Source: Acidihalobacter yilgarnensis
Lineage (GTDB): Bacteria; Pseudomonadota; Gammaproteobacteria; DSM-5130; Acidihalobacteraceae
Reading direction: 5' to 3'
DNA: 64,000 bases
Assembly: GCF_001753245.1 (NCBI RefSeq)
Contig: NZ_CP017415.1
Span: 1,950,501 to 2,014,500, forward strand
Shown here: in pieces, positions 42,598-58,373 of the stretch
Layout of the letters: every line of letters begins with the position of its first letter
Numbering within the stretch: the first letter of the stretch is position 1
Made by a program: the position numbers and the translations under genes
The notes under the pieces: model-generated
What the model saw: only the letters and a program-made list of their open reading frames with translations
The model's database searches: none
Told to the model about the DNA's origin: nothing

Positions 42598-42622
42598 GGG
42601 GCTAGCTAAAAAAGCTAACCCC
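42598..42622 (-). terminator. Displaced tRNA-Pro terminator at the left island end
   Basis: On the minus strand GGGGTTAGCT and AGCTAGCCCC pair around a T-rich loop (one mismatch) and are followed by TTTTTAT. It lies directly after the displaced tRNA 3' end, so it was probably the original terminator of tRNA-Pro before the island inserted. Confidence 0.65.
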
Positions 42623-42682
42623 TTGATTTTATTGGTCGGGGCGAGAGGATTTGAACCTCCTATCACCTGAACCCCATTCAGG
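42617..42682. repeat. Left attachment site: tRNA-Pro 3' fragment
   Basis: The first 44 bp are identical to 50731-50774. The next 22 bp match the anticodon arm region with two mismatches. The homology ends at the anticodon stem, leaving a 3' tRNA fragment (42633-42682) that cannot fold into a full tRNA. Confidence 0.85.
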
Positions 42683-42797
42683 CGAAATGCCCTTTCAATG
42701 GGAATCATGCCGTTCCAGGAAAATATATAACCCATTGGTTTTAATGCATTAGCTGTTTCATGTCGATTCAGCTAGAATCACTCAAAAGCACGCCACT

Positions 42798-42876
42798 GGT
42801 AAACGTGGCGGTAAACGTGAGAATCTACGTTTACCGTAATCAGAGGTGGTATGGTCGCTGCAGCGCCACGTTTACC
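42798..42876. promoter_or_regulatory. Candidate integrase arm-binding sites, left cluster
   Basis: GGTAAACGTG occurs at 42798-42807 and 42810-42819. Inverted versions are at 42827-42835 and 42867-42876, just upstream of the integrase gene. The same direct pair with the same spacing is at 50670-50691 near the other island end. This arrangement is what arm-type sites for a P4-like integrase would look like; binding is inferred. Confidence 0.5.
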
Positions 42877-42903
42877 ACCGGGACTCCAGAACGAGGTCCG
42901 TAG

Positions 42904-44187
42904 ATGGGCAAACTGACGGTCAAGCAAATCGAGAACGCTAAGCCTGGCGCCAAGGACGTCTACCTGCGCGACGGCGACGGGCTGGAGCTGCGCCTCTACC
43001 CGAGCGGCATCTGTGCGTGGCAGTTCCGGTACCGCGCCGGCGAGCAACGCCGCGTCATGGCACTGGGGCGCTACGAACACAATACGCTCAAGGAGGCCCG
43101 CACCGCGGCGCAGGCGGCACGTAAGCTGCTTGACCAAGGCATCGACCCCATCGAAGAACAGAAGCGTCAACAGGAAACCAGGGAGGCCGAGCGCAAGGCT
43201 CGTGAGAGCCGCCGCACATTCGGGCAGGCCTTGAACCGCTGGGCCGAGCTGGAACTTGCGGGAACCAAGGATGGGGGTTCCGAACGCATGCGCGCCATGC
43301 GCAAGGACGTACTGCCCATCCTGGGTGATCGCGACCTCGAAAGCGTCTGCCGTGGCGATCTGGTGGACATACTCGACGGCATCACCGCCCGAGGCGCCCG
43401 CATCCTTGCAAACAGAGTGCTAGGCGACCTTAAGCAGTTCCTGGGTTGGTGCGAAACCCGCGATTGGATCGAGTCCAATCCCATGCGCAGCGTGATCAAG
43501 GAACGAATCGGCGGCCGGGAAACAGAGCGCGACCGCATCCTGAGCCCTGATGAGATGGTAGAGCTTCGTGACAAGCTGCCGGTCGCCAACTTCGAGCAGC
43601 AAACGATCGCCGCCATATGGATCATGCTTTCGACGTTGTGCCGGGTGGGCGAACTGATTCAGGCGCGCTGGGAGGATATCGACCTCGAGGGCGGCACCTG
43701 GCGCATCCCGGCCGGAAATTCGAAGAACGCCAAGGAACACATCGTCTACCTATCGACCTACTCCCGGTACTGGTTCACGGTGCTGCACGCGCGCACCAAC
43801 TGGAGCGGCTGGTGCCTACCCTCGAGTTTGAAGGACAACGCGCATGTGTGTTCGAAATCCATTACCAAGCAGTTACGTGACCGGATGCGCGACGTGGCCA
43901 TGTCCAATCGCACCAAGGCCACAGGTGCTCTGATCCTATCGAGTGGCCCCTGGACGGCCCACGACCTGCGCCGCACCGGCGCGACACTCATGGGCGAGCT
44001 CGGCGTGCTGTCTGAAATCATTGAGCGCTGCCTCAACCATGTGGAGCCTAGCAAGATCAAACGCACGTACCAACGGCACGAATACACCGCAGAGAAGCGC
44101 GACGCCTGGCGACGGCTCGGGGATTACCTGGATGAGCTGCTGAATGGCAACGCGCGAAAGGTGGTGAGTATCGCCGAGGCAAAATGA
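42904..44187 (+). CDS. Tyrosine-recombinase integrase (P4/DUF4102 type)
   Basis: Site-specific recombinase that would insert and excise the island at tRNA-Pro. The protein is 427 residues. The N-terminal DUF4102 arm-binding domain (about 1-95) has YLRDGDGLELRLYPSG. The SAM-like core-binding domain spans about 105-200, and the catalytic domain about 215-400. Catalytic residues visible are Arg in LCRVGEL, HxxR in HDLRRTGAT, a later His in CLNHVEP and Tyr in RTYQRHEY. It lies 220 bp inside the left att site and appears intact. Confidence 0.95.
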   Translation: MGKLTVKQIENAKPGAKDVYLRDGDGLELRLYPSGICAWQFRYRAGEQRRVMALGRYEHNTLKEARTAAQAARKLLDQGIDPIEEQKRQQETREAERKARESRRTFGQALNRWAELELAGTKDGGSERMRAMRKDVLPILGDRDLESVCRGDLVDILDGITARGARILANRVLGDLKQFLGWCETRDWIESNPMRSVIKERIGGRETERDRILSPDEMVELRDKLPVANFEQQTIAAIWIMLSTLCRVGELIQARWEDIDLEGGTWRIPAGNSKNAKEHIVYLSTYSRYWFTVLHARTNWSGWCLPSSLKDNAHVCSKSITKQLRDRMRDVAMSNRTKATGALILSSGPWTAHDLRRTGATLMGELGVLSEIIERCLNHVEPSKIKRTYQRHEYTAEKRDAWRRLGDYLDELLNGNARKVVSIAEAK

Positions 44188-44282
44188 AGAAACCGGCCCG
44201 GCGGATCCGGGAAAGCGGCGTACCAGGTGAAGCAACACCTGGCACGCCTGACCACAAACCGCCTACATAGGAGGCGAGAGTC

Positions 44283-44750
44283 ATGGCTACCGAGAATCCT
44301 ACAACCGCTGCAGGCGCTGTCAACATGGAAAGCGTCCAGCGACGACCTACTATTCAGTTCCCTCTATCGGGCAGCGAACTTGTCCTGAGTACATACGGAG
44401 CCCTCGAAAATGTTGTCGAACTACTAGGCGCTGCTGCGCCCATCGGGTACTCCAAGAAGCTTATGTGCCACGTTTATGGACCGGACCGAAGAGGAGCTAA
44501 AACCGCGGCCGGATGGCTCGCCGATGCCGGAGATCAGGCCCTGAATGGGCTTAAGGCAATAGGCTTTGTCCTCTCGGCGCTCGGCAGCGATAGCATCGAA
44601 AGCCATGGCGATCAGCTCATGGGGATCGGCAACGCAATCACCGCTCTCTCCGTGATCGCACAGAAGTCGCGCGAAGGCGCCTCTGAATTGGAGCACTACG
44701 CCGAACAACTCAAGAGCGCAGGAGTCGATTTCGTAGAGCCCGACGCCTGA
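44283..44750 (+). CDS. Hypothetical island protein
   Basis: 155 residues, no membrane segment, not recognised. The central part is rich in Gly, Ala and Leu with a helical look (DQALNGLKAIGFVLSALG), and the tail is acidic. An AGGAGG Shine-Dalgarno precedes the ATG at good spacing. It is the first gene after the integrase, in the same orientation. Possible regulatory or interference cargo, but nothing in the sequence proves it. Confidence 0.65.
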   Translation: MATENPTTAAGAVNMESVQRRPTIQFPLSGSELVLSTYGALENVVELLGAAAPIGYSKKLMCHVYGPDRRGAKTAAGWLADAGDQALNGLKAIGFVLSALGSDSIESHGDQLMGIGNAITALSVIAQKSREGASELEHYAEQLKSAGVDFVEPDA

Positions 44751-44770
44751 CAATCTCCGGGAGGAACCAT

Positions 44771-45334
44771 ATGAGAACGTTTCCAGAAAGACGCCGGCTC
44801 GAGGCCACTCAAATCGGAGAAACTGAAACAATGACCCAAAAACACACTGCAAACCCCTTACTTGACCCACCTTCTGGGGGGGCAATGTGTATCGGGGCAT
44901 TCAATAGTGCCAACAGTGCCGCATCTCTGCCCGTACAAAATAGCGCGGCAGGAATGGCGGGTTTGGCAGAAATGGACTATGGCGCGGGTTACAGAGGTGG
45001 TTCCGTGGGTAGTTCTGCCATTCCTGCCAACACTGCCAAACCCAGCAAGTCGGGCATAGATGAGGACGACACCATGAGCATTCAACAGTCCGCCATTGGC
45101 GACCAAGTCATTCGAACTGAGTTCTTCGTAACCACCGACATTCCGTGTGACAAGAGATCAGGAAAGCTATTCCTGCATGGCGAGTTTCCGGCTGACGGTG
45201 GTGTCGTACGCATGCACCCCTTGGCCGGTCCCTTCGATACGGAACAGGAAGCGCGCGATGCGTTAGCGCATGTCCAGTTACCCGAAAATGCGCTGTGCGA
45301 GAAAGGGATAATTAAAAGCCAGCAGCTCCGATAA
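44771..45334 (+). CDS. Hypothetical island protein containing the 173-bp repeat
   Basis: 187 residues from the ATG at 44771, which follows GGGAGG at ideal spacing. Residues about 43-100 are encoded by a DNA repeat that also encodes the tail of the replication ATPase in the same frame (NSANSAASLPVQNSAAGMAG and following). An internal ATG at 45074, preceded by TGAGGA, would give an 86-residue protein made only of the non-repeat part (MSIQQSAIGDQVIRTEFF...). Either start may be used. The function is unknown. Confidence 0.55.
   Translation: MRTFPERRRLEATQIGETETMTQKHTANPLLDPPSGGAMCIGAFNSANSAASLPVQNSAAGMAGLAEMDYGAGYRGGSVGSSAIPANTAKPSKSGIDEDDTMSIQQSAIGDQVIRTEFFVTTDIPCDKRSGKLFLHGEFPADGGVVRMHPLAGPFDTEQEARDALAHVQLPENALCEKGIIKSQQLR
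44898..45070. repeat. 173-bp dispersed direct repeat, copy 1
   Basis: Nearly identical to 47851-48023 (about three mismatches in the first 160 bp, more at the right edge). It contains a perfect 12-bp inverted repeat, GGCAGGAATGGC (44947-44958) and GCCATTCCTGCC (45017-45028), plus TGCCAACAGTGCC and TGCCAACACTGCC units. It ends just before the 45074 ATG. Iteron-like content suggests a protein-binding or origin element embedded in coding sequence. Confidence 0.85.
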
Positions 45335-45426
45335 TCTGTTGCGCCGCGTCTAGGCCGACGGGCCGAAAACCTGCTCCCTGGCAGGCTGGCGCGGCCCCCC
45401 CCTTACAGGGGCGTGAAAGGGGCGCC

Positions 45427-45957
45427 ATGACAAACTCAAAGCTGCCGCTGCAGTTCATTCAGTCCCGCGTTTCTCAACTCGCCGTCGAACTGAAAGACGT
45501 GTTCGGAGATCGCGTCCTCAATGCCGATCCCTATGAGCCTTGGCGAGCCTTCCTATTGCCTGATAGACGCAAGCAGGTATCCCCTCGCTTCTGGTGCGAA
45601 TATCGATTCCCCCCACCCGAGCTCCCCAGAAAAAGTAGCGCATACGCCTTGGACGACTTGAGAGAGGCGATTTGGGCGTACTGCGCAGGCCTCGAGTGCT
45701 TGCGGGAGTTTCAACCAGAAATTTACGAGGTATTCCTAGATTCGTTATCCGAGTGGAACAGGTGGAAACGAAGACTCGCGGATCATTGCGCTGCCAACGC
45801 ATCTCGTAGCGGCCTGCGCCGATCCGACAACGAACTAAAAACTCGCATAAAACAGCTCTTTGAAGAAGGGCGCACCAGCAAAGAAATCGCAAGCGACGTG
45901 GGGCTAGGGATTAGAGCGATTCAAAAGCGCCTAAAAAAATACAGCGAACCTTCATAG
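45427..45957 (+). CDS. Hypothetical protein with C-terminal helix-turn-helix
   Basis: 176 residues. The N-terminal 130 are not recognised (aromatic and Arg-rich). The last 45 (DNELKTRIKQLFEEGRTSKE and following) read as a homeodomain-like or resolvase-type HTH with a recognition helix near IRAIQKRLKKY. It lies just before the AlpA-like gene, so it is a candidate second DNA-binding regulator or recruitment factor of the island. Confidence 0.6.
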   Translation: MTNSKLPLQFIQSRVSQLAVELKDVFGDRVLNADPYEPWRAFLLPDRRKQVSPRFWCEYRFPPPELPRKSSAYALDDLREAIWAYCAGLECLREFQPEIYEVFLDSLSEWNRWKRRLADHCAANASRSGLRRSDNELKTRIKQLFEEGRTSKEIASDVGLGIRAIQKRLKKYSEPS

Positions 45958-45979
45958 CAGGTTCGCGCTCATCTTTCAG

Positions 45980-46023
45980 ATGATGCCCCGGCATTACCAA
46001 TCGCTATCAGCCGGGGGCATCAT
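45980..46023 (+). promoter_or_regulatory. Hairpin covering the alpA-like ribosome-binding site
   Basis: ATGATGCCCCGGC (45980-45992) pairs with GCCGGGGGCATCAT (46010-46023) over 13 bp with one bulged G and a 17-nt loop. The 3' arm contains the only purine-rich Shine-Dalgarno candidate (GGGGG) and ends on the base before the ATG. Translation would be blocked unless the stem is opened. No T-tract follows, so it is not a terminator. Confidence 0.65.
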
Positions 46024-46230
46024 ATGACAACCAACAGTAGTCAAACAGCGAGCCGTGATCGGCTCGTGCGCAACAAAGCGTCCGCCGATTTTCTAGGCAT
46101 CAGTTACGCGACATATTGGCGCCTTGTGAGACGAGGAGAATTGCCACAGCCGGTTCGAATTACGGCGCAGATTGGTGGGCAACCCGAGCATGTGCTCGTT
46201 GATTTTCTTCGGTCGAAGGGCGCCGCATGA
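46024..46230 (+). CDS. AlpA-like excisionase/transcriptional regulator
   Basis: 68 residues, a small MerR/AlpA-type helix-turn-helix protein: NKASADFLGISYATYWRLVR forms the HTH, followed by a short wing and tail. In P4-like islands such proteins activate integrase expression or act as excision factors. Its stop overlaps the start of the replication ATPase by four bases, so the two are translated together, and its own start lies directly behind a strong hairpin. Confidence 0.8.
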   Translation: MTTNSSQTASRDRLVRNKASADFLGISYATYWRLVRRGELPQPVRITAQIGGQPEHVLVDFLRSKGAA

Positions 46231-48038
46231 AAAATGCCCGCCGGGGGAACGGCGGGCATTTGGCCTCTCAGCCCGTAGATTTGTCGGCGAAGTCGACCGA
46301 GGCCAATTATCCGCGCTCAAAAAACTCTAATCAACCCGCGCCAGTGCGCGTTACACCTCACTCTATCGAGGCCGAGCAAGCAGTGCTCGGAGGCCTCATG
46401 CTGGACAATTCGACCTGGCACCAGGTCGCAGAGCGGATATATGAGGAAGATTTCTACCGCTTCGATCACCGTCTGATCTTCCGGGTGGCCAAACGCCTGG
46501 CTTCGCAGAATCAACCCCTTGATGTAATCACACTGTCAGAAGCTCTAGAGCGCACGGGCGATCTCGAACAGACGGGTGGACTAGCCTATCTAGGCGTTCT
46601 GGCACGTGACACGCCCAGTGCGGCCAATATTCAAGCCTATGCGGAGATTGTGCGGGACCGCGCGCGGTTGCGAAGCCTTATCGCCGCAGCCACCCATATC
46701 GCCGATAGCGCGTTCAATCCTAACGGCCGTGACTCGACCGAGATCCTCGACGAAGCACAGCGTGCCGTGACGGCCGTGGCTATTCGGTACGCCAACACAT
46801 CTTCTGCGGTCATTCTTCTGCGCGGTGACCAATTAGAAATATCCGCAATTCAATGGTTATGGGTGGGATGGATCGCTCGCGGCAAACTTCACCTTCTTGT
46901 CGGTGCACCCAGCACTGGGAAAACCACCTTACTGATGGCATTGGCCGCGATTGTAAGCCACGCCGGCATGTGGCCTGACGGCACGACTGCCCCCGGTGGT
47001 CATGTAGTAATTCTGAGTTTCGAGGATGACCCACACGACACCCTCGTGCCAAGGCTGAAGGCCGCTGGCGCAGATATGAGCAAGATAGTCATCGTCGGTG
47101 ATGTGCGTGAGGAAGATGGCGATCGCTGTTTCGACGCCGCGCGCGATATTCCGATTTTGGCAGCGGCTCTGGCCAGCATGCCGGAGCCGCCTGCGATGCT
47201 CATCATTGATCCGATCGTGAATCTAGTTGCCCGCGACTCAAATGCGAGCTCGGACGTACGACGCTCCTTGGCGCCATTGGTCGACCTCGGGCATCGAATC
47301 GGTTGTGCGGTGATCGGCATCTCGCACTTCACCAAAGGCACAACCGGCCGTGATCCTGTTGAGCGCGTCACTGGTTCAATTGCGTTTGGTGCCCTAGCCC
47401 GGGTGGTTCTAACCACGGTCCGCCGGCCAGATGACCATCCGGAAGGCCCCGCACGCGTGGTGGTACGCGCGAAATCAAACATAGGACCGGATGGCGGCGG
47501 GTGGAGCTATGAGATTGAACCCATCGAACTTGATGACCACCCTGGCCTGTTCGCGACTCGAGCCAAGCTAGGCGACGCGATTGAGGGAACAGCTCGGACA
47601 CTCCTCACTGAGGCAGAAACCGTAGCCGAGGAAGATATGTCGCGCTCCTCGGCACTCGATGCGGCCGCCGATTGGCTAAAGAGGTTCCTGGCAGGTGGTG
47701 GTGAGTCCGCAGGAAAATGCCTTACCGAAGCGGCCAAAGAGAATATTAGCGAGCGCACACTCCATCGCGCGCGTCGCGAACTCGGCATCGAGAGCACCGT
47801 CTCCGGATTCGGGCGCGAGAAGACCTCGGTATGGTCGCTGCCCGCCGGGACATTCAATAGTGCCAACAGTGCTGCATCTCTGCCCGTACAAAATAGCGCG
47901 GCAGGAATGGCGGGTTTGGCAGAAATGGACTATGGCGCGGGTTACAGAGGTGGTTCCGTGGGTAGTTCTGCCATTCCTGCCAACACTGCAAAACCCAGCA
48001 ACTCGGGCATAAATGACGACGGCGAGGTGGCCATATGA
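46227..48038 (+). CDS. Replication ATPase: DnaB N-terminal domain fused to RepA-like helicase core
   Basis: 603 residues. After a basic linker, residues about 40-150 match the N-terminal domain of DnaB helicases (SIEAEQAVLGGLMLDN, LEQTGGLAYLGVLARDTP). Residues about 210-420 are a RecA-fold RepA/AAA_25 ATPase: Walker A GAPSTGKTTLL, Walker B MLIIDPIVNL and the sensor-like ISHFTKG. A small winged-helix region (about 495-545) is followed by a 50-residue tail encoded by the 173-bp repeat. It probably drives island replication after excision. No primase motif was seen. Confidence 0.85.
   Translation: MKNARRGNGGHLASQPVDLSAKSTEANYPRSKNSNQPAPVRVTPHSIEAEQAVLGGLMLDNSTWHQVAERIYEEDFYRFDHRLIFRVAKRLASQNQPLDVITLSEALERTGDLEQTGGLAYLGVLARDTPSAANIQAYAEIVRDRARLRSLIAAATHIADSAFNPNGRDSTEILDEAQRAVTAVAIRYANTSSAVILLRGDQLEISAIQWLWVGWIARGKLHLLVGAPSTGKTTLLMALAAIVSHAGMWPDGTTAPGGHVVILSFEDDPHDTLVPRLKAAGADMSKIVIVGDVREEDGDRCFDAARDIPILAAALASMPEPPAMLIIDPIVNLVARDSNASSDVRRSLAPLVDLGHRIGCAVIGISHFTKGTTGRDPVERVTGSIAFGALARVVLTTVRRPDDHPEGPARVVVRAKSNIGPDGGGWSYEIEPIELDDHPGLFATRAKLGDAIEGTARTLLTEAETVAEEDMSRSSALDAAADWLKRFLAGGGESAGKCLTEAAKENISERTLHRARRELGIESTVSGFGREKTSVWSLPAGTFNSANSAASLPVQNSAAGMAGLAEMDYGAGYRGGSVGSSAIPANTAKPSNSGINDDGEVAI
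47851..48023. repeat. 173-bp dispersed direct repeat, copy 2
   Basis: Second copy of the element at 44898-45070, in the same reading frame, forming the C-terminal tail of the replication ATPase. Its 12-bp inverted repeat is at 47900-47911 and 47970-47981. It ends about a dozen bases before the next start codon (48035), the same relative placement as copy 1. Confidence 0.85.
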
Positions 48039-48397
48039 CGCCCGACACCATCCGCCGAGCCTGCGCTGCAGAAGGACTTGTGCTCCAACTGCGCGAACCC
48101 GACACCATCGTCCTCAGCGGCCCGCAGGATGCCCGTGAGCGCTGGGCGCCAATAGTCCGCGAACACAAAACGGAATGCCTCCGGCGGCTGCGCCAAGAAG
48201 TCACCCACGGAGCCATGGGGCGTCGCCAGTTGGAAGTCCTGGCGCGCGAATTCCACGTCGACGCGCTCGACCTAGTCGACTGGTACCTGGATGACCTGGA
48301 AGAAATCGCGGCCATGCCACTGGCAAAGCTGCGATCCACTGTTCGCGATTACATCAAACACCGACCATTCTATCGCGGCGGATGCCGCCTTTCATGA
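48035..48397 (+). CDS. Hypothetical island protein (intact donor of the duplication-junction tail)
   Basis: 120 residues, overlapping the ATPase stop by four bases. The N-terminal 50 residues (IRRACAAEGLVLQLREPDTI and following) resemble a small docking-type domain; the remainder is helical and charged. Not recognised. The left edge of the tandem duplication (48301) falls inside this gene; the gene itself is complete, while its last 31 codons are repeated at the internal junction. Confidence 0.6.
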   Translation: MTPDTIRRACAAEGLVLQLREPDTIVLSGPQDARERWAPIVREHKTECLRRLRQEVTHGAMGRRQLEVLAREFHVDALDLVDWYLDDLEEIAAMPLAKLRSTVRDYIKHRPFYRGGCRLS

Positions 48398-48407
48398 GGA
48401 GCAAGCC

Positions 48408-49145
48408 ATGCACGAGATCAAGCAAGCAGCAGAAACTGTCAATCAGAAACGAGAGGAACTCCAGATCGCGCAGGAGAAACTAGCCGACGTTAAGACAGCC
48501 GCCCAGCTACCACAGGCTGCACGTACACGCGTAGAGCAGATGCTGGCCGACCCTCGAAACGACCCGGCAAACCTTGTGCGGATTTACCGGGGTCCAACGG
48601 GTGGCGCGCAAACGTATGAACTCCATGAGCGCATCGAACAGCCGGCCGAAGATGACATCCTCGAACGCCTGCGCCAACAGCTGCAGGCAGAAGTCGGAAA
48701 CGCTCACCTCGAAGATCGGACACCTGATGTCGCTGAGATAAATGCCGAGATCCGTGAGATCGAGGGCGCGCGCGCAGCCATGGCAGTGCAACAGGCGCGG
48801 GTGGCCAGCCTGTCGAATGAATTGGCGCAGCTGGAGAAAATTCTCGCAGATGCTGTCATAGAGTTTGCCCGTAGTCACTTTGACGCCGGTCGAACCGCAT
48901 ACAGGAAATCCCTGGATGCGACGTTGAATGCACTCACGATGATGGCGGCCGCCAATGCTCTGGGTTCCCAATGGTCCGCCCGAGGCGCGCGTGCATGGCC
49001 AGATCAGATCGAGCCATACCTTAATCAGCCCAACCGCCCGCAGCATCAGCCGGTCGACTTCCGCGCCGCGGTAACAGGAGATGCCTTCCAACGTGCTCGC
49101 GGCTTCTTGATAAACAAGCTCACGCAGTTGGGCGTCGAGATTTGA
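48408..49145 (+). CDS. Hypothetical coiled-coil island protein, copy 1
   Basis: 245 residues with a long Glu/Lys/Gln-rich amphipathic N-terminus (about 1-50) and a second helical stretch (about 125-165) suggesting coiled coils. The C-terminal 60 residues are less charged. GAGGA lies about ten bases before the ATG. No family recognised. Its position before two phage-like genes would allow a scaffolding or structural role, but this is only inference. Confidence 0.55.
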   Translation: MHEIKQAAETVNQKREELQIAQEKLADVKTAAQLPQAARTRVEQMLADPRNDPANLVRIYRGPTGGAQTYELHERIEQPAEDDILERLRQQLQAEVGNAHLEDRTPDVAEINAEIREIEGARAAMAVQQARVASLSNELAQLEKILADAVIEFARSHFDAGRTAYRKSLDATLNALTMMAAANALGSQWSARGARAWPDQIEPYLNQPNRPQHQPVDFRAAVTGDAFQRARGFLINKLTQLGVEI

Positions 49146-49183
49146 TCAACGTGGCCCCGGCGACGGGGCCGCATAAACTCTAG

Positions 49184-49711
49184 GTGACGAACATGAAAAT
49201 AAATTTTCCGATTCGGACAAGTGGCCTACGCGATCAACCCGGGCATGCGGTGGTTGCCAAGAGGCCGCGCACGCCGCTTCAGAGAGCAAAAGGAGCATCC
49301 GTGATGCCCAATGGCCATTCGGCCAAGAAATCGCCCCAGAGAAAGCCTGACGCGTCGCCAAGACCATGGATTGCCAGCGCGTCCAAAATCAAAAGCGCAA
49401 TTATCAATGAGCGCACACGGTGCAAACGGATTTTTTCCGCCGGTATCGAACACGATTCCCTTGCGACAGCCTGCACGTTGGCCTTCAACACCAGCCTGTC
49501 GGCATACAAAGCGAAGCTTGTTCTCGCAGGAACAGCAGCCGATCGCCAGCGCCGCCAGCCACTGCGAAGCTCATATCGGCATGAGCCCATACCTTCGATG
49601 ATCATCCCACACGTTGTACCGGATGGCGGCGAGAATCCAGATGGGAGGGTGCATATACAAGCGAAAGCGATCCATGCTGCAGCTGCTAAGGCGCGAGGTG
49701 CGGCGGCATGA
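49184..49711 (+). CDS. Hypothetical island protein with a phage-protease-like tail, copy 1
   Basis: 175 residues, very basic, Pro/Arg/Ser-rich N-terminal half. The segment IINERTRCKRIFSAGIEHDS and the following LATACTLAFNTSLSAYKAKLVL resembles the tail often found at the C-terminus of phage S49/ClpP-type head-maturation proteases (ERxR.xxIL...A..LA.xTxLxxxqA). No protease domain is present. It overlaps the next gene by four bases. It could be a scaffold-like remnant; the function is not established. Confidence 0.5.
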   Translation: MTNMKINFPIRTSGLRDQPGHAVVAKRPRTPLQRAKGASVMPNGHSAKKSPQRKPDASPRPWIASASKIKSAIINERTRCKRIFSAGIEHDSLATACTLAFNTSLSAYKAKLVLAGTAADRQRRQPLRSSYRHEPIPSMIIPHVVPDGGENPDGRVHIQAKAIHAAAAKARGAAA

Positions 49712-50382
49712 TCGAAATTTCCGTAAGGTCAAATCTCAAAGAGATCGAGAGGTCGCTGGAAGCATTCGTGCGCAAGCAGATTCCATTTGCAACTGGCCGC
49801 GCATTGACTGAATTGGCGGTTGAAGTGAAAAAAGCCGAGGTCAAGAACTTGCTGACCAAAATGCCTACGGCAACACCATTTACCCAGAAATCCATCGGAT
49901 CGACCAAGGCCAACAAGCTGTCTCGTAGTGCGACGGTTTATGTGCGCGATGTCGCAGCTTCATATCTCTATCCGTACGAGTTCGGTGGATTGAACAAGCT
50001 CAACGGTTCAGCTCTATTGAAGCCTGAGAATGTTCGCCTCAACAAGTACGGCAACTTGCCGCGCAAGAGACTCGCTCAACTATTGTCTAAACCCGATGTG
50101 TTTGTGGGCAAGATCAAATTCAAGTCAGGCGATGTGGTGGATGGCATTTGGCAACGCGGCCTATATGGCAGTCGTCGCAAAGGCGGCTACATGGGTACCA
50201 AAGGAAAGCATCATATGATCGCAGGCAATCGATCAACATTGACGCTGCTCGTCCGTTTCGCTGATGCACATCCTGCCAAACCTAGACTTGGCTATCGTGT
50301 CACTGCTGAGTCTTTGATTGCTCGACGGTTCAACAAAATATTCGGGCGCGAACTGGCGCGCGCCATGGCCACGGCCCGATGA
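49708..50382 (+). CDS. Phage minor-tail/neck morphogenesis-like protein, copy 1
   Basis: 224 residues, basic. The opening IEISVRSNLKEIERSLEAFV followed by PFATGRALTELAVEVKKAEV resembles minor tail protein Z or HK97 gp10-like tail-completion proteins, which start with a helix and several VKK/VRK turns. KHHMIAGNRSTLTLLVRFAD is a distinctive mid-C-terminal stretch. It is the last gene of the island operon and is followed by a bidirectional terminator. The family call is by eye and not certain. Confidence 0.5.
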   Translation: MIEISVRSNLKEIERSLEAFVRKQIPFATGRALTELAVEVKKAEVKNLLTKMPTATPFTQKSIGSTKANKLSRSATVYVRDVAASYLYPYEFGGLNKLNGSALLKPENVRLNKYGNLPRKRLAQLLSKPDVFVGKIKFKSGDVVDGIWQRGLYGSRRKGGYMGTKGKHHMIAGNRSTLTLLVRFADAHPAKPRLGYRVTAESLIARRFNKIFGRELARAMATAR

Positions 50383-50462
50383 ATGGGGTGGTCCTGGGTC
50401 CCTCCTGGCGACTTTGCATCAGGGGCATTTGCGAGCTGCGTTGTTTCCCCAGCTATGGGGGC

Positions 50463-50502
50463 AAAAAGCCGGTTAACACAATAAGTTAACTCTAGGCTTT
50501 TT
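50463..50502. terminator. Bidirectional terminator ending the island operon, copy 1
   Basis: AAAAAGCC (50463-50470) pairs with GGCTTTTT (50495-50502), with an inner GTTAAC/GTTAAC palindrome. Both strands end in T-runs, so it serves the island genes and shields against transcription from the tRNA side. Confidence 0.8.
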
Positions 50503-50669
50503 CGTTAACCCAGCAAGAGTGAGGGTTTCAGCCAGAAGAATCGTAGTCGCCGTCTGCATCAAACTACTATCGAGCGATGCGTTTTCCGAGCTCGTATCAT
50601 CGCTGCCCGCGCTACCAATTCTACCGAGTGCGCCGATAATTGGAGCACCTGCGCCTATCCACCGCCGCT

Positions 50670-50691
50670 GGTAAACGTGACGGTAAACGTG
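50670..50691. promoter_or_regulatory. Candidate integrase arm-binding sites, right cluster, copy 1
   Basis: GGTAAACGTG at 50670-50679 and 50682-50691, a direct pair with the same 2-bp gap as the pair at 42798-42819. It lies about 40 bp from the right att repeat. Confidence 0.5.
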
Positions 50692-50702
50692 GAGCGCCAG
50701 AA

Positions 50703-50730
50703 ACAAAAAAGGGCCGGCGCGAAAAACGCC

Positions 50731-50736
<6 letters not shown>
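50703..50736 (-). terminator. Island-supplied terminator for tRNA-Pro, copy 1
   Basis: On the minus strand GGGTTGGCG pairs with CGCCGGCCC (two G-T wobbles) around a 7-nt loop, followed by TTTTTTG. It lies directly downstream of the tRNA and straddles the island boundary, replacing the terminator displaced to 42598-42622. Confidence 0.7.
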
Positions 50737-50823
<87 letters not shown>

Positions 50824-50835
50824 CAAAGAGGCGAG

Positions 50836-50864
50836 AGATTACCCGAACGGACAGACCAAGGCAA
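50836..50864 (-). promoter_or_regulatory. tRNA-Pro promoter, copy 1
   Basis: Minus-strand -35 TTGCCT (50859-50864) and -10 TAATCT (50836-50841), with a 17-bp spacer, end 12 bp before the tRNA 5' end. This is a good sigma-70-type match. Confidence 0.65.
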
Positions 50865-51165
50865 ACCTTCCTAACGTACATGCGGTCGATGTCACCAAGC
50901 GTCGACCATTTGGATGAAGGTTTAGGATAGATAGGCCCTCAGTGCCCAATCGGTCATCGCGACCCATAAGAACGCGAAGATGCTGACGTGCAACAGGCTT
51001 TTGCACGTATCGAGCGTAGTCGCCGCGCTTGGGTAATCCCCCCTCAAAGTAGTAGCGTTCAGAAGTGGAATTTTCCGATACTCACCGGTAAGGAGATTCC
51101 GCATGAAGAAATCGCGATACACGGACTGAATCGCCCCGGGTATCGCGGAGGCTGTTTGGTTTAAG

Positions 51166-52017
51166 TTAAGCAGCTACCGCTGTTTGACGGTTGAGTTGCT
51201 CGTAATAGTTTGCCTCAGCTTCTGCGGGAGGTATATGACCCAGTGGTCCCATCAATCTTTGATGGTTAAACCACGAGACCCATTCCAAGGTCGCCAGTTC
51301 CACAGATTCCCGCGTCTTCCAAGGCCCTCGACGATGGATAAGTTCGGCCTTATACAGTCCGTTGATGGTCTCGGCCAGGGCGTTGTCGTAGCTGTCGCCC
51401 TTGCTGCCAACCGACGGCGCGATGTCTGCCTCGGCAAGCCGCTCACTGTAGCGGATGGAGACATACTGCGAGCCCCGGACGCTGTGGTGGATCAGGGTAT
51501 CCTCCGAGCTGGGCTGTCGGTCGTACAGCGCCTGCTCCAGGGCGTCGAGTACGAAGTCCGTGGTCATGCTGGTGCTGACACGCCAGCCCACAATGCGTCG
51601 GGCGAACACATCAACGACGAAGGCCACGTAGAGCCAGCCCTGCCAGGTTGAGACATACGTGAAGTCCGACACCCAGAGCTGGTTGGGGCGATCCGCCTGG
51701 AACTGACGATTGACCCTGTCCAGCGGGCAAGGTACCGATGTGTCAGGCGTCGTGGTGCGAACGATCTTGCCCCGACGTACGCCCTCCAGGCCCAGGCGAC
51801 GCATGAGCCGCTCCACGGTACAGCGCGCTACGACAATGTCCTCGCGGTTCATCTGCTTCCAGACCTTCTCGGCACCGTAGACCTGCATATTGGCCTGCCA
51901 GACACGCTCAATATGCGGCATCAGCCATTCATCGCGCTTGGCCCTGGCGCTGCGCAGTTCCGGATTGCGCTGCCGTGCCGCATGACGCCGGTAAGCCGAT
52001 GGGGCGACCTGCAACAC
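51166..52017 (-). CDS. Nested IS orfB transposase (DDE with D to V substitution), copy 1
   Basis: 283 residues from the first start; homologous sequence ([19 protein letters not shown]) extends upstream in frame to about 52086, so the natural product is an OrfAB fusion made by frameshifting from orfA. The rve integrase core has WVSDFTYV (first Asp) and ALAETING (Glu). The second motif reads HHSVRGSQYVS where the family has HHSDRGSQY, so the second catalytic Asp is Val. Transposition by this copy is therefore unlikely. Confidence 0.88.
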   Translation of the reverse strand: MLQVAPSAYRRHAARQRNPELRSARAKRDEWLMPHIERVWQANMQVYGAEKVWKQMNREDIVVARCTVERLMRRLGLEGVRRGKIVRTTTPDTSVPCPLDRVNRQFQADRPNQLWVSDFTYVSTWQGWLYVAFVVDVFARRIVGWRVSTSMTTDFVLDALEQALYDRQPSSEDTLIHHSVRGSQYVSIRYSERLAEADIAPSVGSKGDSYDNALAETINGLYKAELIHRRGPWKTRESVELATLEWVSWFNHQRLMGPLGHIPPAEAEANYYEQLNRQTAVAA

Positions 52018-52070
52018 GCGGCAGATCGGCTCGACCCCATAGGCATCCCGATGCTCGTCGATGTAGGCGT

Positions 52071-52394
52071 TCAGGACTTCAGCTTGCGGTCGAGCTCCGC
52101 TTGGGCGAAAAAAGCGCTGGCCGTGCGCAGGATGTCATTGGCACGCCGCAACTCCTTGATCTCGCGCTCCAGCTCCTTGATGTGCTGTGCCTCGGCTGTG
52201 GTCGTACCCGCGCGCGACCCGGCATCGATCTCTACACGCTTGACCCATTCATGCAGGGTGTTGGCCGAACAGCCGATCTTCGGGGCGATCGACTCCACCG
52301 CGGCCCACAGCGAGGGATACTCCCCGCGATGCTCCTGGACCATTCGCACCGCACGCTCACGGACCTCAGGGGAAAATTTGTTCAACTTGTTCAT
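52071..52394 (-). CDS. Nested IS orfA, copy 1
   Basis: 107 residues: an HTH domain ([38 protein letters not shown]) and a leucine-zipper-like tail ([19 protein letters not shown]). It is the regulatory and DNA-binding half of the IS3-type transposase. The same tail is recognisable in the decayed fragment at about 35064-35345. Confidence 0.88.
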
Positions 52395-52683
52395 GGCTTC
52401 ATTCTCTCAAGAGTTGAAGCCTCCTCAAAACCCGGGGCGATTCAGACAGCCAGATCATCAGCATTCTCAAGCAGGCCGAGGCCGGCACGCCCGTGCCTGA
52501 GCTGTGCCGCGAGCACGACATGAGCAGCGCCACGTTCTACAAGTGGCGGGCCAAGTACGGCGGCATGGACGCTTCGCTGATGGCCCGCCTGAAGGAGCTG
52601 GAGGACGAGAACCGGCGGCTGAAGAAGATGTACGCCGAGGAGCGTCTGGTTTCGGAGATTCGCAAGGAAGCCCTTGAGGGAAA

Positions 52684-53511
52684 ATGGTAAGGCCCTCTTC
52701 GCGCCGGGAGAGGGCCCAAGACTGTGTGGCGCAACGGGGTATCAGCATCGGCCTGGCCTGCCGTGCGTTTGGGATCAGTCAGACATGCTATCGGTATCAA
52801 GCGAATCCGTCGGAAGAGAACGCGCGCATCGCCGACTGGCTGGTTCGGCTGACGCACAAGCAGCGCAACTGGGGCTTTGGGCTGTGCTTTCTGCACCTGC
52901 GCAACGTCAAGGGCTTTGGCTGGAATCACAAGCGCGTGTACCGCATCTACCGGGCGCTGGAACTGAACCTGCGGATCAAGCCCAAGCGACGGATCGTGCG
53001 CGACAAGCCCGAGCCATTGGCCGTGCCCGAGGCGCTCAACCAGAGCTGGTCGATGGATTTTATGCACGACAGCTTACAGGATGGGCGCCCGTATCGGCTG
53101 TTCAACGTCATTGACGACTACAACCGCGAAGGATTGTGCATCGAGGCCGACTTCTCGCTACCGGCCGAACGGGTTGTGCGCGCACTGGATCGGGTCATCG
53201 AATGGCGCGGCAAGCCGCAGGCGATCCGCTGCGACAACGGGCCAGAATACGTCAGCACGACCCTGGCCGCCTGGGCAGCCAAGCACGGCATTGCGCTCAA
53301 CTTCATCCAACCCGGCAAACCTCAGCAGAACGCCTATATCGAGCGCTACAATCGCACCGTGCGCTACGACTGGCTGAACCAATACCTGTTCGAGTCGATC
53401 CACGAGGTCCAAAACTTCGCCACCCGCTGGCTCTGGACCTACAACCACGAACGGCCAAACATGGCCCTCGGAGGCATCACCCCAAAACAGAAGCTCGCCC
53501 TGGTGGCTTAA
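52684..53511 (+). CDS. IS407-like orfB transposase, copy 1
   Basis: 275 residues, overlapping the orfA stop. The DDE triad looks intact: SMDFMHD (Asp), [10 protein letters not shown] (Asp) and [10 protein letters not shown] (Glu), 35 residues after the second Asp as usual in IS3. OrfA is interrupted upstream, so an OrfAB fusion cannot be made from this copy. Confidence 0.92.
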
Positions 53512-53555
53512 CCCTTCCATTTCTGAACATCGCTAAAAATGGGGGATTACCCTTG

Positions 53556-53937
53556 TTGCGATCGTTTCAGGATCGATTCACCCTGGATACAGGCGAGATC
53601 ACGGCAACGGTCGGTGACAGGCGAGTGGCCTTTCCTCAACGGTTACTGTCTCACAAGCAAGACCGATAGCGAAAATACCGGGTATGTTGGCAACATTCAT
53701 CGATTGACACTGGAATGCATACCCAGCTCGCGACACGTGGGCTGATCAAGGCGCGGTGAGGACGATTGCGGTTCGTACGTCCTCTACCGGTGTTGGCAAT
53801 AACGGATCAGCAACGAGATTATCACTCCGACCTCGCGCTGAAGATCTGGTGCGCCACATTCGTGCATCCGATTCATCATCAGTGCGCTCTGTCACATGGC
53901 GGCGTAATGCCTTAGAATACGGCGGCAAACCTCCAGC
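53556..53937. other. Intergenic stretch before the AurF-like gene, copy 1
   Basis: No gene, hairpin or firm promoter could be supported. It was contiguous with 50865-51027 before the IS insertion. Confidence 0.4.
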
Positions 53938-54810
53938 ATGCACTCACTCATGGTTGCGCAAGCCAGCGCTCTTACAGAACAGCTCAATCGCAGCAGCAAC
54001 CCCTATCGGGATCCGCTGAGTCGCATCGACTGGCAATCCCTGGACCTCGATCACTGGTGGTTGCCAGAAGCCGCCGTTAGCCTTCATGGCATCCCAGCCT
54101 ACGATCACCTGCCTGAAGCACAGCGTAAACGTCTCTCGCAGTATGAATTCATCAACTTCATCGAGAAGGCCCTTTGGCTGGAGGGCATCTTCATGGAGAG
54201 GATCAGCCGCGCATTGGCAGATTCACTCGGCCAGCCATCAGAAACCCTTTACCGCCTGCATGAGTTACGCGAGGAAGCGGGCCACAGCCTCATGTTTATG
54301 GAGTTGATCCAACGCAGTGGATTGCCCATTGATCCGGCCGCCTTCAAGCGGCCACGACTGGCAACCTGGGTTGGCCGCCACGCGCCCTACCGTTCGGCCG
54401 CCTTCTGGATCGCGGTGCTGATCGGAGAACAGGTTCCAGATCACATGAACCGTATGATCCGCAAGCACCGCGCCCAGATTTCAGACACCATCTACGAAAT
54501 CATCACCCTCCATGCAATCGATGAAGCACGCCACATCGTGCATGCCAGAGCAACCCTGGAGTATTGCCTGCCCATAGCCGGCCGCTTGGCCCCGATTTAT
54601 CTGCCTCTTCTGAATCACGTTTTTCGCCAATTTGTCGAGGCCTTCTACTTCCCCGCTCCCGCGCTGTATCAACTTGCAGGCTTGGATCAGCCGGCACGCT
54701 GGGCACAGCGTGCCCACGCTAACACCGCGCGCATCACCTTTGTTGACGAATGCGTGGCCAGCACGCTACGTCAGCTGGCCGGCAAAAATTTGCCCATCAG
54801 CTGGCGCTAG
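53938..54810 (+). CDS. AurF-like diiron oxygenase, copy 1
   Basis: 290 residues, all-helical ferritin-like fold resembling the p-aminobenzoate N-oxygenase AurF family (PF11583). Iron-ligand motifs visible: EFINFIEKALWLEGIFME, REEAGHSLMFMEL (ExxH), IGEQVPDHMNR and HAIDEARHIVHAR (ExxH plus His). Family members oxidise amines or other small substrates; the substrate here is unknown. ATG 53938 is used, with another Met four codons in. It is monocistronic, between the IS and the DUF2282 gene. Confidence 0.82.
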   Translation: MHSLMVAQASALTEQLNRSSNPYRDPLSRIDWQSLDLDHWWLPEAAVSLHGIPAYDHLPEAQRKRLSQYEFINFIEKALWLEGIFMERISRALADSLGQPSETLYRLHELREEAGHSLMFMELIQRSGLPIDPAAFKRPRLATWVGRHAPYRSAAFWIAVLIGEQVPDHMNRMIRKHRAQISDTIYEIITLHAIDEARHIVHARATLEYCLPIAGRLAPIYLPLLNHVFRQFVEAFYFPAPALYQLAGLDQPARWAQRAHANTARITFVDECVASTLRQLAGKNLPISWR

Positions 54811-55414
54811 CCGCTCTTCTCCACCGCAAATCGCATCCCAGACACGCCTCGTCATAACAACGAAGCAGCCTTGGCACTCCCAAACAACCGACTTGGGACT
54901 CGGGACCCAACACATAACTCTCAATTTATTGATCAGCAGGTTGGATCGCATATCCAGCTGATACATTCGATGGCGCTATCGGCCATTTCATACATGAAGA
55001 AATCAAAGTCGCCCTCTTCCAGCTGGATGAGCATTCAACATGTAGTGTGGATTGCACTCCTGCCAAAAAAATCATATACGCTACCCATGTGCATGTCCGC
55101 AAAGCCTATATAGCCGGTTTTTTTATGCTCATCTCACCTACCCCGTCGACTCTACGCTTCTGATGCTTTCTTTGGAGCATGCCTATGGTATGGCCAATAT
55201 AAATAAAATATGAACGCTCAACAGAAAACAACCATTGAACAGCGGTGATGAATATATAGATACACGCCTAATCATCGTCACTTCCATGGAAATAAAAGAC
55301 TCGATCAATAAAAAAACAATTTCACGCTGCGCAAGCGCCAATTTGGCGCGCACTTGGGTTCGAACCAACTCTTTACGCGCACACTTTAATTCTCAGTCTT
55401 CCAATTAAGTCGAG
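54811..55414. other. AT-rich intergenic stretch, copy 1
   Basis: About 600 bp noticeably richer in A and T than the surroundings. Short frames on both strands show no family resemblance. A tRNA-like GGTTCGAACC at about 55360 was checked and does not belong to a foldable tRNA. Confidence 0.4.
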
Positions 55415-55452
55415 ATAAAAATATCCGATGCCGCACAAATACGGCATCGGAT
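55415..55452 (-). terminator. Terminator of the DUF2282 gene, copy 1
   Basis: On the minus strand ATCCGATGCCG and CGGCATCGGAT pair perfectly over 11 bp around an 8-nt loop and are followed by ATTTTTAT. It begins 17 bp after the stop codon, making the gene monocistronic. Confidence 0.85.
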
Positions 55453-55468
55453 GAATTAACACGCGTGG

Positions 55469-55729
55469 CTATGGCTTATCCAAATTCCCGCCAGAAATTT
55501 TCTGGCACACACCTACCGGCACAGCAATAAAGGCATGCGGGTCCCGGTCAACCGTGGTAGTGCCGGCACATGAATTCGTTGCTGTAGCGCAATCGTTGTG
55601 ATGCGCCTTGCTAATGCCGTAGCATTTTTCCATCGCGGGTGCCGCGTATACGGTTGTAGTCATGCCGCCGACACCCAGTGTCAGCATCGCAGCCAGTGCA
55701 TAGGTCAATTTGCGTTTACTCTTGTTCAT
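55469..55729 (-). CDS. DUF2282 (bufferin-type) secreted precursor protein, copy 1
   Basis: 86 residues. A Sec signal peptide (KSKRKLTYALAAMLTLGVGG, cleavage near YAAPA) precedes a short mature part with four cysteines in the family pattern KCYG, NDCAT, SCAG and VCQK. DUF2282 proteins are known as metal-binding (copper) peptide precursors, modified when a DUF692/MNIO enzyme and a DUF2063 partner are present. Neither partner is adjacent; a terminator follows. The frame starts at 55735, but the ATG at 55729 has AAGGGG at proper spacing. It is divergent from an ECF sigma gene, the usual type of controller for this family. Confidence 0.85.
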   Translation of the reverse strand: MNKSKRKLTYALAAMLTLGVGGMTTTVYAAPAMEKCYGISKAHHNDCATATNSCAGTTTVDRDPHAFIAVPVGVCQKISGGNLDKP

Positions 55730-55885
55730 TCCCATCCCCTTTTCGATTATTGTAGAACCAGCTCTTGAGGACTTTGCCTCAATTGCACTGTCGTTTCAGC
55801 CAATATTTTTCTTACAGGATGGAGCTACACGGGAATCCCAATACGATGTGCTAAGCTCAAAGTCGGGCAACGTGGTAATCGCATT

Positions 55886-56101
55886 TTGACAATCCTCACA
55901 CACGAAACGACCACCCAACCGGATCTCTGGTTGGAACGCTATGGCAGCTCTCTGTACCGCCACGCATTGATTCGCACGGGCGACCCTGCCGTCGCTGAAG
56001 ACAGAGAAATCGCGGCCATGCCACTGGCAAAGCTGCGATCCACTGTTCGCGATTACATCAAACACCGACCATTCTATCGCGGCGGATGCCGCCTTTCATG
56101 A
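55886..56101 (+). pseudogene. Chimeric ORF: sigma-factor N-terminus fused to island protein C-terminus
   Basis: 71 residues in one frame across the duplication junction. The first 39 (TTG start; LTHETTTQPDLWLERYG and on, ending VAED) are the start of the ECF sigma factor seen intact at 63590. The last 31 (EIAAMPLAKLRSTVRDYIKH and on) are the C-terminus of the 48035 protein. The extra G at 56004 makes an Arg codon and keeps the frame. The sigma -10 recognition helix is lost, so sigma activity is not expected. Confidence 0.9.
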
Positions 56102-56111
56102 GGAGCAAGCC

Positions 56112-56849
56112 ATGCACGAGATCAAGCAAGCAGCAGAAACTGTCAATCAGAAACGAGAGGAACTCCAGATCGCGCAGGAGAAACTAGCCGACGTTAAGAC
56201 AGCCGCCCAGCTACCACAGGCTGCACGTACACGCGTAGAGCAGATGCTGGCCGACCCTCGAAACGACCCGGCAAACCTTGTGCGGATTTACCGGGGTCCA
56301 ACGGGTGGCGCGCAAACGTATGAACTCCATGAGCGCATCGAACAGCCGGCCGAAGATGACATCCTCGAACGCCTGCGCCAACAGCTGCAGGCAGAAGTCG
56401 GAAACGCTCACCTCGAAGATCGGACACCTGATGTCGCTGAGATAAATGCCGAGATCCGTGAGATCGAGGGCGCGCGCGCAGCCATGGCAGTGCAACAGGC
56501 GCGGGTGGCCAGCCTGTCGAATGAATTGGCGCAGCTGGAGAAAATTCTCGCAGATGCTGTCATAGAGTTTGCCCGTAGTCACTTTGACGCCGGTCGAACC
56601 GCATACAGGAAATCCCTGGATGCGACGTTGAATGCACTCACGATGATGGCGGCCGCCAATGCTCTGGGTTCCCAATGGTCCGCCCGAGGCGCGCGTGCAT
56701 GGCCAGATCAGATCGAGCCATACCTTAATCAGCCCAACCGCCCGCAGCATCAGCCGGTCGACTTCCGCGCCGCGGTAACAGGAGATGCCTTCCAACGTGC
56801 TCGCGGCTTCTTGATAAACAAGCTCACGCAGTTGGGCGTCGAGATTTGA
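56112..56849 (+). CDS. Hypothetical coiled-coil island protein, copy 2
   Basis: Identical to the protein at 48408-49145 (245 residues). Here it lies just downstream of the chimeric sigma ORF rather than the replication ATPase, so its transcription may now come from the sigma-gene promoter. Confidence 0.55.
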   Translation: MHEIKQAAETVNQKREELQIAQEKLADVKTAAQLPQAARTRVEQMLADPRNDPANLVRIYRGPTGGAQTYELHERIEQPAEDDILERLRQQLQAEVGNAHLEDRTPDVAEINAEIREIEGARAAMAVQQARVASLSNELAQLEKILADAVIEFARSHFDAGRTAYRKSLDATLNALTMMAAANALGSQWSARGARAWPDQIEPYLNQPNRPQHQPVDFRAAVTGDAFQRARGFLINKLTQLGVEI

Positions 56850-56887
56850 TCAACGTGGCCCCGGCGACGGGGCCGCATAAACTCTAG

Positions 56888-57415
56888 GTGACGAACATGA
56901 AAATAAATTTTCCGATTCGGACAAGTGGCCTACGCGATCAACCCGGGCATGCGGTGGTTGCCAAGAGGCCGCGCACGCCGCTTCAGAGAGCAAAAGGAGC
57001 ATCCGTGATGCCCAATGGCCATTCGGCCAAGAAATCGCCCCAGAGAAAGCCTGACGCGTCGCCAAGACCATGGATTGCCAGCGCGTCCAAAATCAAAAGC
57101 GCAATTATCAATGAGCGCACACGGTGCAAACGGATTTTTTCCGCCGGTATCGAACACGATTCCCTTGCGACAGCCTGCACGTTGGCCTTCAACACCAGCC
57201 TGTCGGCATACAAAGCGAAGCTTGTTCTCGCAGGAACAGCAGCCGATCGCCAGCGCCGCCAGCCACTGCGAAGCTCATATCGGCATGAGCCCATACCTTC
57301 GATGATCATCCCACACGTTGTACCGGATGGCGGCGAGAATCCAGATGGGAGGGTGCATATACAAGCGAAAGCGATCCATGCTGCAGCTGCTAAGGCGCGA
57401 GGTGCGGCGGCATGA
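56888..57415 (+). CDS. Hypothetical island protein with phage-protease-like tail, copy 2
   Basis: Identical to 49184-49711. Confidence 0.5.
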   Translation: MTNMKINFPIRTSGLRDQPGHAVVAKRPRTPLQRAKGASVMPNGHSAKKSPQRKPDASPRPWIASASKIKSAIINERTRCKRIFSAGIEHDSLATACTLAFNTSLSAYKAKLVLAGTAADRQRRQPLRSSYRHEPIPSMIIPHVVPDGGENPDGRVHIQAKAIHAAAAKARGAAA

Positions 57416-58086
57416 TCGAAATTTCCGTAAGGTCAAATCTCAAAGAGATCGAGAGGTCGCTGGAAGCATTCGTGCGCAAGCAGATTCCATTTGCAACTGG
57501 CCGCGCATTGACTGAATTGGCGGTTGAAGTGAAAAAAGCCGAGGTCAAGAACTTGCTGACCAAAATGCCTACGGCAACACCATTTACCCAGAAATCCATC
57601 GGATCGACCAAGGCCAACAAGCTGTCTCGTAGTGCGACGGTTTATGTGCGCGATGTCGCAGCTTCATATCTCTATCCGTACGAGTTCGGTGGATTGAACA
57701 AGCTCAACGGTTCAGCTCTATTGAAGCCTGAGAATGTTCGCCTCAACAAGTACGGCAACTTGCCGCGCAAGAGACTCGCTCAACTATTGTCTAAACCCGA
57801 TGTGTTTGTGGGCAAGATCAAATTCAAGTCAGGCGATGTGGTGGATGGCATTTGGCAACGCGGCCTATATGGCAGTCGTCGCAAAGGCGGCTACATGGGT
57901 ACCAAAGGAAAGCATCATATGATCGCAGGCAATCGATCAACATTGACGCTGCTCGTCCGTTTCGCTGATGCACATCCTGCCAAACCTAGACTTGGCTATC
58001 GTGTCACTGCTGAGTCTTTGATTGCTCGACGGTTCAACAAAATATTCGGGCGCGAACTGGCGCGCGCCATGGCCACGGCCCGATGA
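57412..58086 (+). CDS. Phage minor-tail/neck morphogenesis-like protein, copy 2
   Basis: Identical to 49708-50382. Confidence 0.5.
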   Translation: MIEISVRSNLKEIERSLEAFVRKQIPFATGRALTELAVEVKKAEVKNLLTKMPTATPFTQKSIGSTKANKLSRSATVYVRDVAASYLYPYEFGGLNKLNGSALLKPENVRLNKYGNLPRKRLAQLLSKPDVFVGKIKFKSGDVVDGIWQRGLYGSRRKGGYMGTKGKHHMIAGNRSTLTLLVRFADAHPAKPRLGYRVTAESLIARRFNKIFGRELARAMATAR

Positions 58087-58166
58087 ATGGGGTGGTCCTG
58101 GGTCCCTCCTGGCGACTTTGCATCAGGGGCATTTGCGAGCTGCGTTGTTTCCCCAGCTATGGGGGC

Positions 58167-58206
58167 AAAAAGCCGGTTAACACAATAAGTTAACTCTAGG
58201 CTTTTT
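58167..58206. terminator. Bidirectional terminator, copy 2
   Basis: Same AAAAAGCC/GGCTTTTT structure as at 50463-50502. Confidence 0.8.
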
Positions 58207-58373
58207 CGTTAACCCAGCAAGAGTGAGGGTTTCAGCCAGAAGAATCGTAGTCGCCGTCTGCATCAAACTACTATCGAGCGATGCGTTTTCCGAGCTCGTA
58301 TCATCGCTGCCCGCGCTACCAATTCTACCGAGTGCGCCGATAATTGGAGCACCTGCGCCTATCCACCGCCGCT

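Follow-up and report, generated by a model that had tools for sequence, protein, structure and literature searches.

Two almost identical copies of a short DNA element lie in an integrated island of Acidihalobacter yilgarnensis, one at the 3' end of a replicative helicase gene and the other upstream of the operon that ends in that gene, which raises the question of what such an element does at either place. The window analysed here is a stretch of 64,000 nucleotides (contig NZ_CP017415.1, positions 1,950,501 to 2,014,500, forward strand), and positions are counted from its first letter. A preliminary description of this DNA had considered a replication origin with a second regulatory copy, a binding site for the adjacent replicase, or a mobile cassette. 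We propose, at a probability of about 0.78, that the element is the iteron-type replication origin of an integrated satellite resembling a phage-inducible chromosomal island (PICI), and that it is bound by the predicted winged helix-turn-helix (HTH) at the C-terminus of the helicase.

Two copies of an iteron-bearing element

The near-identical repeat of 173 bp reported earlier was borne out, the two copies (Table 1) sharing 97% identity across 176 bp. No third copy was found in a whole-genome search of the host's own 3.57-Mb genome, and none beyond the host in its family, in 369 genomes of its class, or in phages, plasmids and IMG/VR. Short matches in five class genomes (L162-L166) were near the chance level for so many genomes, and none of the five adjoins a helicase gene. 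The middle 116 bp of the element (44921-45036 in copy 1 coordinates) are invariant between the copies, and the seven mismatches, all within 44897-45069, are concentrated towards the element ends. Read in the helicase frame, two of these are synonymous and five non-synonymous, a split that gives no sign of constraint at the peptide level. Identity even at synonymous positions, as first described, is therefore true of the 116-bp core.

The units of the element are 9-bp iterons (TGCCANNNC / GNNNTGGCA) arranged in three clusters of alternating orientation, with TGCC words spaced mostly 9 bp apart; short repeats of regular period, both direct and inverted, are thus present. Because the 9-bp iteron length corresponds to three codons, the array is readable as peptide. 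An exact 12-bp inverted repeat with arms 58 bp apart was confirmed (GGCAGGAATGGC, 44947-44958 / GCCATTCCTGCC, 45017-45028). It is crossed by a second inverted pair of 11 bp (GGGTTTGGCAG / CTGCCAAACCC), and therefore the arms are inverted iteron clusters and not one plain hairpin. The motif TGCCAACA(G/C)TGCC does occur twice per copy as described, but both occurrences in copy 2 carry one mismatch each. All six TGCC units are intact in copy 1; in copy 2, two of the six read TGCT and TGCA.

The helicase and its C-terminal domain

Copy 2 starts immediately behind the winged HTH of the helicase and forms the C-terminal tail of the protein. The helicase matched the Pfam families DnaB (1.4e-34) and AAA_25 (1.2e-31), and its PDB relative is 1g8y/1nlf, 'REGULATORY PROTEIN REPA' (profile match E 5.6e-10). 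In an AlphaFold2 model of the product of 46830-47860 (alignment of 83 sequences; mean predicted local distance difference test score, pLDDT, 93.5), the C-terminal end reads as a winged HTH with three helices and two wing strands. Foldseek searches with this model gave RecA-fold matches for the core and no informative result for the winged HTH. By tblastn, the DnaB N-terminal domain was found in none of the loci of the non-redundant relatives described below, and among these sequences its fusion to an AAA_25-winged HTH helicase looks unusual.

Arrays directly behind the HTH in relatives

Relatives of the helicase were gathered from Gammaproteobacteria, Pseudomonadota and IMG/VR and were reduced to 88 at <85% identity. 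In the IMG/VR scan a single-sequence query gave no relatives and an alignment query did, and a scan of the genome collection with the full-length protein returned mostly relatives of the DnaB N-terminal domain and not of the AAA_25 family. About a dozen relatives form the set in which the pattern was first seen, the others having been gathered later. Repeated 8-mers, direct and inverted, in the 300 bp past the domain were scored against all other segments of the same locus (n = 87). The post-HTH 300 bp were in the top 5% of the locus for short repeats in 53 of 87 relatives (Kolmogorov-Smirnov p 7e-28), and exceeded every other segment of the locus in 36 of 87. The positional profile gave 44/87 (51%) at offset 0, 9/86 (10.5%) at +300 and, at each of eleven further offsets, 0-6%; 7-mer pairs spaced 9 bp apart were present in 36% of the post-HTH segments as compared to 5% of background segments. 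Array sequences vary among the relatives and the position is fixed, adjoining or inside the gene of the cognate helicase, as in iteron origins. Thus, the element of the window is unique to this genome in sequence, but its location is conserved.

Both orientations occur in 40 of the 42 clear arrays, and tandem arrays of one orientation are found in some relatives, e.g. L059. In 31 of 37 arrays, the largest gap within the array has a higher AT content than the locus. The 42 clear arrays comprise 18 that are coding, 19 that are non-coding past the stop codon and 5 that straddle it. The coding status is free, and therefore it is the DNA that matters and not the peptide. A same-genus relative (L035), which is 57% identical in the aligned domain, has an alignable array (alignment score 66-69; highest score of shuffled sequences 55) that contains an in-frame TAG.

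Iteron type follows HTH type

Sharing of iteron 8-mers followed HTH identity when AAA identity was controlled (partial Mantel r 0.24, p 0.0005), while the reverse test, AAA given HTH, gave 0.04. At AAA identity below 40%, iterons were shared in 30 of 132 pairs with similar recognition helices, as compared to 42 of 1127. Groups could be recognised by eye, in which AAGGTGCT goes with mostly SWAT-RRA helices, AGACCGCC with RT(I/L)ERAK, AATCTTCG with (K/A)KQ(I/V)W-A-KKL and AAGATGCC with KKQ(I/L)RTAREK; groups with different iterons include a AAGGTGCTCA group and a GACCGCCA group. The CATTCCTGCC of the window differs by one base from the CATTCGTGCC of three relatives (L079, L082 and L151), and the wing motif GFGxxxxSxWSL is common to the window helicase and these three. 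L079 has in-frame GGCACGAAT 9-mers in a style like that of the window, and further along its element are genes for capsid, prohead protease and portal, which is the layout of a capsid-forming satellite (PICI). The covariation of HTH and iteron, like the repeat, its iteron anatomy and the conserved array position after the helicase domain, was established here. The comparison lends good support to the earlier suggestion of a replication origin or replicase binding site, with post-HTH arrays in most relatives and an iteron type that tracks the HTH type.

Proposed mechanism

What follows on binding, on origin activity and on a role for copy 1 is inferred. The winged HTH of the helicase would bind the 9-bp repeats, and the bound helicase would load or assemble at the array to initiate replication once the island has been excised as a circle. 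Copy 2, at the end of the helicase gene, would occupy the ancestral position, the array there being read through as a presumably harmless peptide tail (AGMAGLAEM...SAIPANTAKP). Copy 1 would be a recent duplicate placed ahead of the replication operon, 3 kb upstream of copy 2, and may serve as a second binding site, whether as part of the origin, as a control site or as a decoy. What is unusual is the presence of a second copy: among the relatives with arrays, no convincing second array of the relative's own unit was found, several of the searched loci being short. The array at the usual place is therefore copy 2, and copy 1 is derived.

Several observations weigh against an iteron origin read by the helicase. 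About 40% of the relatives are without an array at the post-HTH position, and two of the relatives without one (L039 and L041) have iteron-like clusters elsewhere. The array of the window is itself modest, ranking in the top 4% of its locus, and copy 2 breaks the repeat pattern at the two units that copy 1 keeps intact. An AT-rich stretch between iteron sets, as in PICIs, was not seen in the window element; a nearby one, at ~44820, reaches 60% AT over 40 bp, and none lies inside either copy. Joint inheritance or recombination of the neighbouring HTH and array could also give covariation without binding, and since the two are neighbours, linked inheritance contributes to the covariation. The cluster of L039 is located ~400 bp beyond the helicase domain, where inverted CTTAAGGTG units lie on both sides of an AT-rich stretch, and that of L041 ~2.5 kb upstream.

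Explanations for the second copy

Copy 1 could be an operator through which the helicase, or an HTH protein encoded at 45427 or 46024, autoregulates the replication operon, with copy 2 as the only origin. Its place directly in front of 45074 and of the operon ending in the helicase agrees with this, as do its six of six TGCC units and the outgroup L035, which backs the copy 1 base at 44920, its alignment at 45037 being ambiguous; copy 1 would fit a better-kept site, although with only two changes this is not decisive. However, no sigma-70-like promoter was found on the + strand within 44200-48400, and no array-bearing relative has an equivalent site. An origin with a second regulatory copy, as was proposed earlier, fits the anatomy, but no sigma-70-like promoter was found beside copy 1 on that strand, and we consider an operator conceivable but doubtful. 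Alternatively, copy 1 may be passive, having arisen from copy 2 by a recent duplication or by gene conversion between the two, with no function of its own and with an open frame that comes from the copied coding sequence. The presence of two copies only, the mismatches lying towards the ends and the absence of a second copy from relatives are what such an event would leave; it accords less well with the identity of the iteron core between the copies, with the intact state of both outer units in copy 1 and with an insertion point exactly ahead of the replication operon. We give a passive duplicate appreciable, though limited, credence.

Both copies had been described as lying in frame in two proteins, just before a start codon. 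The same frame is indeed open through both, and an ATG follows the element end by 6 nt in copy 1 (45074) and by 13 nt in copy 2 (48035), but a gene across copy 1 is uncertain: the open reading frame (ORF) 44771-45334 (187 aa), which spans this copy, has a strong Shine-Dalgarno sequence (GGGAGGAA) before 44771, and the alternative start at 45074 has its own (GAGGA). A mobile cassette, by which peptide tails would be added to unrelated proteins, had also been suggested, and the in-frame position in two ORFs agrees with it. The copies share a frame because the duplicated sequence was already open, insertion in the same frame having about one chance in three, which also suits a passive duplicate. 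The arrays of relatives are unrelated in sequence, fixed in position and about half outside the coding frame, and with no other copy in the genome and collections searched, the cassette was rejected as scarcely credible. A structured RNA element, i.e. a riboregulator or attenuator preceding each start codon, would agree with the folding z-score of -4.5 for copy 1 RNA. However, the fold stems from the inverted iterons and the DNA folds likewise (z -2.3), tandem arrays of one orientation occur in relatives such as L059, and array sequence varies with HTH type. The folding being accounted for by the inverted iterons, we rejected this explanation too as very improbable. Short ORFs with an N-terminal pattern like that of the 48035-48397 product were seen by eye downstream of the array in several relatives.

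Island setting

The island is bounded by partial tRNA-Pro(GGG) repeats, and its cargo consists of the integrase, small HTH genes, the helicase and small genes (Table 1). It has the site-specific integrase and the att repeats by which a PICI is recognised. The HTH_17 and AlpA matches of the 46024-46230 product both fall short of the curated cut-off. The only packaging or interference genes recognised were a phage minor-tail-like gene near the right end (49708-50382; phrog_1924, E 1.8e-42) and, in the ORF preceding it, a weak head-protease match. Short repeats of the TGGTAAACGTGGCGGTAAACGTG type, direct and inverted, are present near both ends (42797-42877 and 50665-50691) and are probably arm-type sites of the integrase. 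A 7703-bp tandem repeat of 100% identity (48301-56003 and 56005-63707) begins within the island just past copy 2 and takes in attR and the tRNA-Pro gene; it is either a recent duplication or an assembly artefact. In a same-genus genome without the helicase (G001), matches to the tRNA-Pro half-site lie ~10.7 kb apart (L169/L172, C1 ~1628949-1639747), which suggests a different island at the equivalent tRNA.

Table 1. Features of the island and of the two element copies (positions in the window)
Feature	Position	Strand	Evidence or remark
attL-like direct repeat, tRNA-Pro(GGG) 3' part	42605..42682	.	
Tyrosine integrase of island	42904..44187	+	Pfam Phage_integrase 4.3e-19
Copy 1, derived duplicate upstream of replication operon	44893..45068	+	between genes 44283-44750 and 45074-45334
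Copy 1 iteron cluster a	44908..44931	+	TGCCAACAG TGCCGCATC TC TGCC; copy 2 counterpart 47861-47884, with TGCT
Copy 1 iteron cluster b, inverted	44947..44973	-	GGCAGGAAT GGCGGGTTT GGCAGAAAT; three 9-bp units; copy 2: 47900-47926
Copy 1 iteron cluster c	45016..45042	+	TGCCATTCC TGCCAACAC TGCCAAACC; copy 2: 47969-47995, third unit TGCA
Small ORF starting 6 nt past copy 1, or 3' part of ORF 44771-45334	45074..45334	+	
HTH DNA-binding protein, weak	45427..45957	+	phrog_686 0.0021
Small HTH protein, AlpA/excisionase-like, weak	46024..46230	+	HTH_17 0.00096, AlpA 0.0041, phrog_66 2.8e-4
Replicative helicase	46227..48038	+	DnaB N-terminal domain, AAA_25 (RepA-like RecA fold), C-terminal winged HTH, iteron-encoded tail
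Helicase C-terminal winged HTH, candidate iteron reader	47661..47845	+	recognition helix ISERTLHRARRELGI, wing GFGREKTSVWSLP; model secondary structure, covariation
Copy 2, putative iteron origin	47846..48021	+	in frame as helicase C-terminal tail; position matches arrays of relatives
Small gene starting 13 nt past copy 2	48035..48397	+	
attR-like direct repeat	50719..50796	.	overlaps intact tRNA-Pro gene 50747-50823 (-)

Significance and comparison with known systems

With a rule that places the origin right behind the winged HTH of the helicase, the origins of many unannotated satellites and phages would be findable from sequence alone. The HTH-iteron pairs form a dataset on the co-evolution of initiator specificity and origin, and the duplicated copy is a natural test case for two-origin or decoy control in a satellite. 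The arrays suggest that a repetitive C-terminal tail in such a helicase can be translated origin DNA and not functional protein sequence. It may even be that in many satellites and phages, forming a large class, AAA_25 helicases recognise the origin themselves, that each does so by a fused winged HTH specific for a private iteron, with a recognition code that can be deciphered, and that the doubled origin of this island controls initiation by its second copy, as a decoy or a paired origin; taken together, this is a tentative extension that we hold to be rather unlikely. No report of a general rule for AAA_25 helicases or of an HTH-iteron correspondence was found in the open-licence literature searched.

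In PICIs, the origin directly follows the initiator gene on its 3' side and consists of two sets of iterons with an AT-rich stretch between them; that of EcCICFT073 has been shown to function (PMC6092414). This Gram-negative PICI resembles the island in its integrase, AlpA-like gene (weak here), initiator, 3' iteron origin (putative in the island) and co-directional genes (PMC6092414). In contrast, the helicase of the island combines DnaB-N, AAA_25 and winged HTH, its array lies within the coding frame, its iteron sets have no AT-rich stretch between them, a duplicate of the origin-like segment lies upstream, and a clear packaging or interference module was not recognised. The Staphylococcus aureus pathogenicity islands (SaPIs), which are Gram-positive PICIs, likewise carry their iteron sets 3' to the gene of the initiator (PMC6092414), whereas gene order and host group differ; the comparison is one of layout.

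In phage lambda the iterons are part of gene O, which encodes the initiator that binds them, and extra origin copies placed ectopically can interfere in trans and block replication (PMC4488673). Copy 2 resembles it in having iterons within initiator coding sequence, a likeness of arrangement only for which no homology is claimed; lambda has four 19-bp repeats in O with an AT-rich side, and a single origin. The lambda initiator O is not a helicase. RepA of the PICI-like element (PLE) satellite binds iterons in a non-coding region (PMC7145576), and the alpha protein of P4 and its cognate site are mentioned in PMC6092414. The repeats of the island differ from those of P4 ori and crr, and its two regions are 97% identical. 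In satellite P4, ori and crr are two separate cis regions used by one replicase with helicase activity, and this alpha protein is a primase-helicase of another family than the island helicase. The RepA of RSF1010 (PDB 1g8y/1nlf) shares a RepA-like RecA-fold core with the island helicase. The iterons of RSF1010 are bound by a separate protein, RepC, whereas in the island the winged HTH is fused to the helicase. Thus, the parts are known and their combination is new, i.e. an AAA_25 helicase with a fused winged HTH, an in-frame origin-like array and a duplicate of it ahead of the operon.

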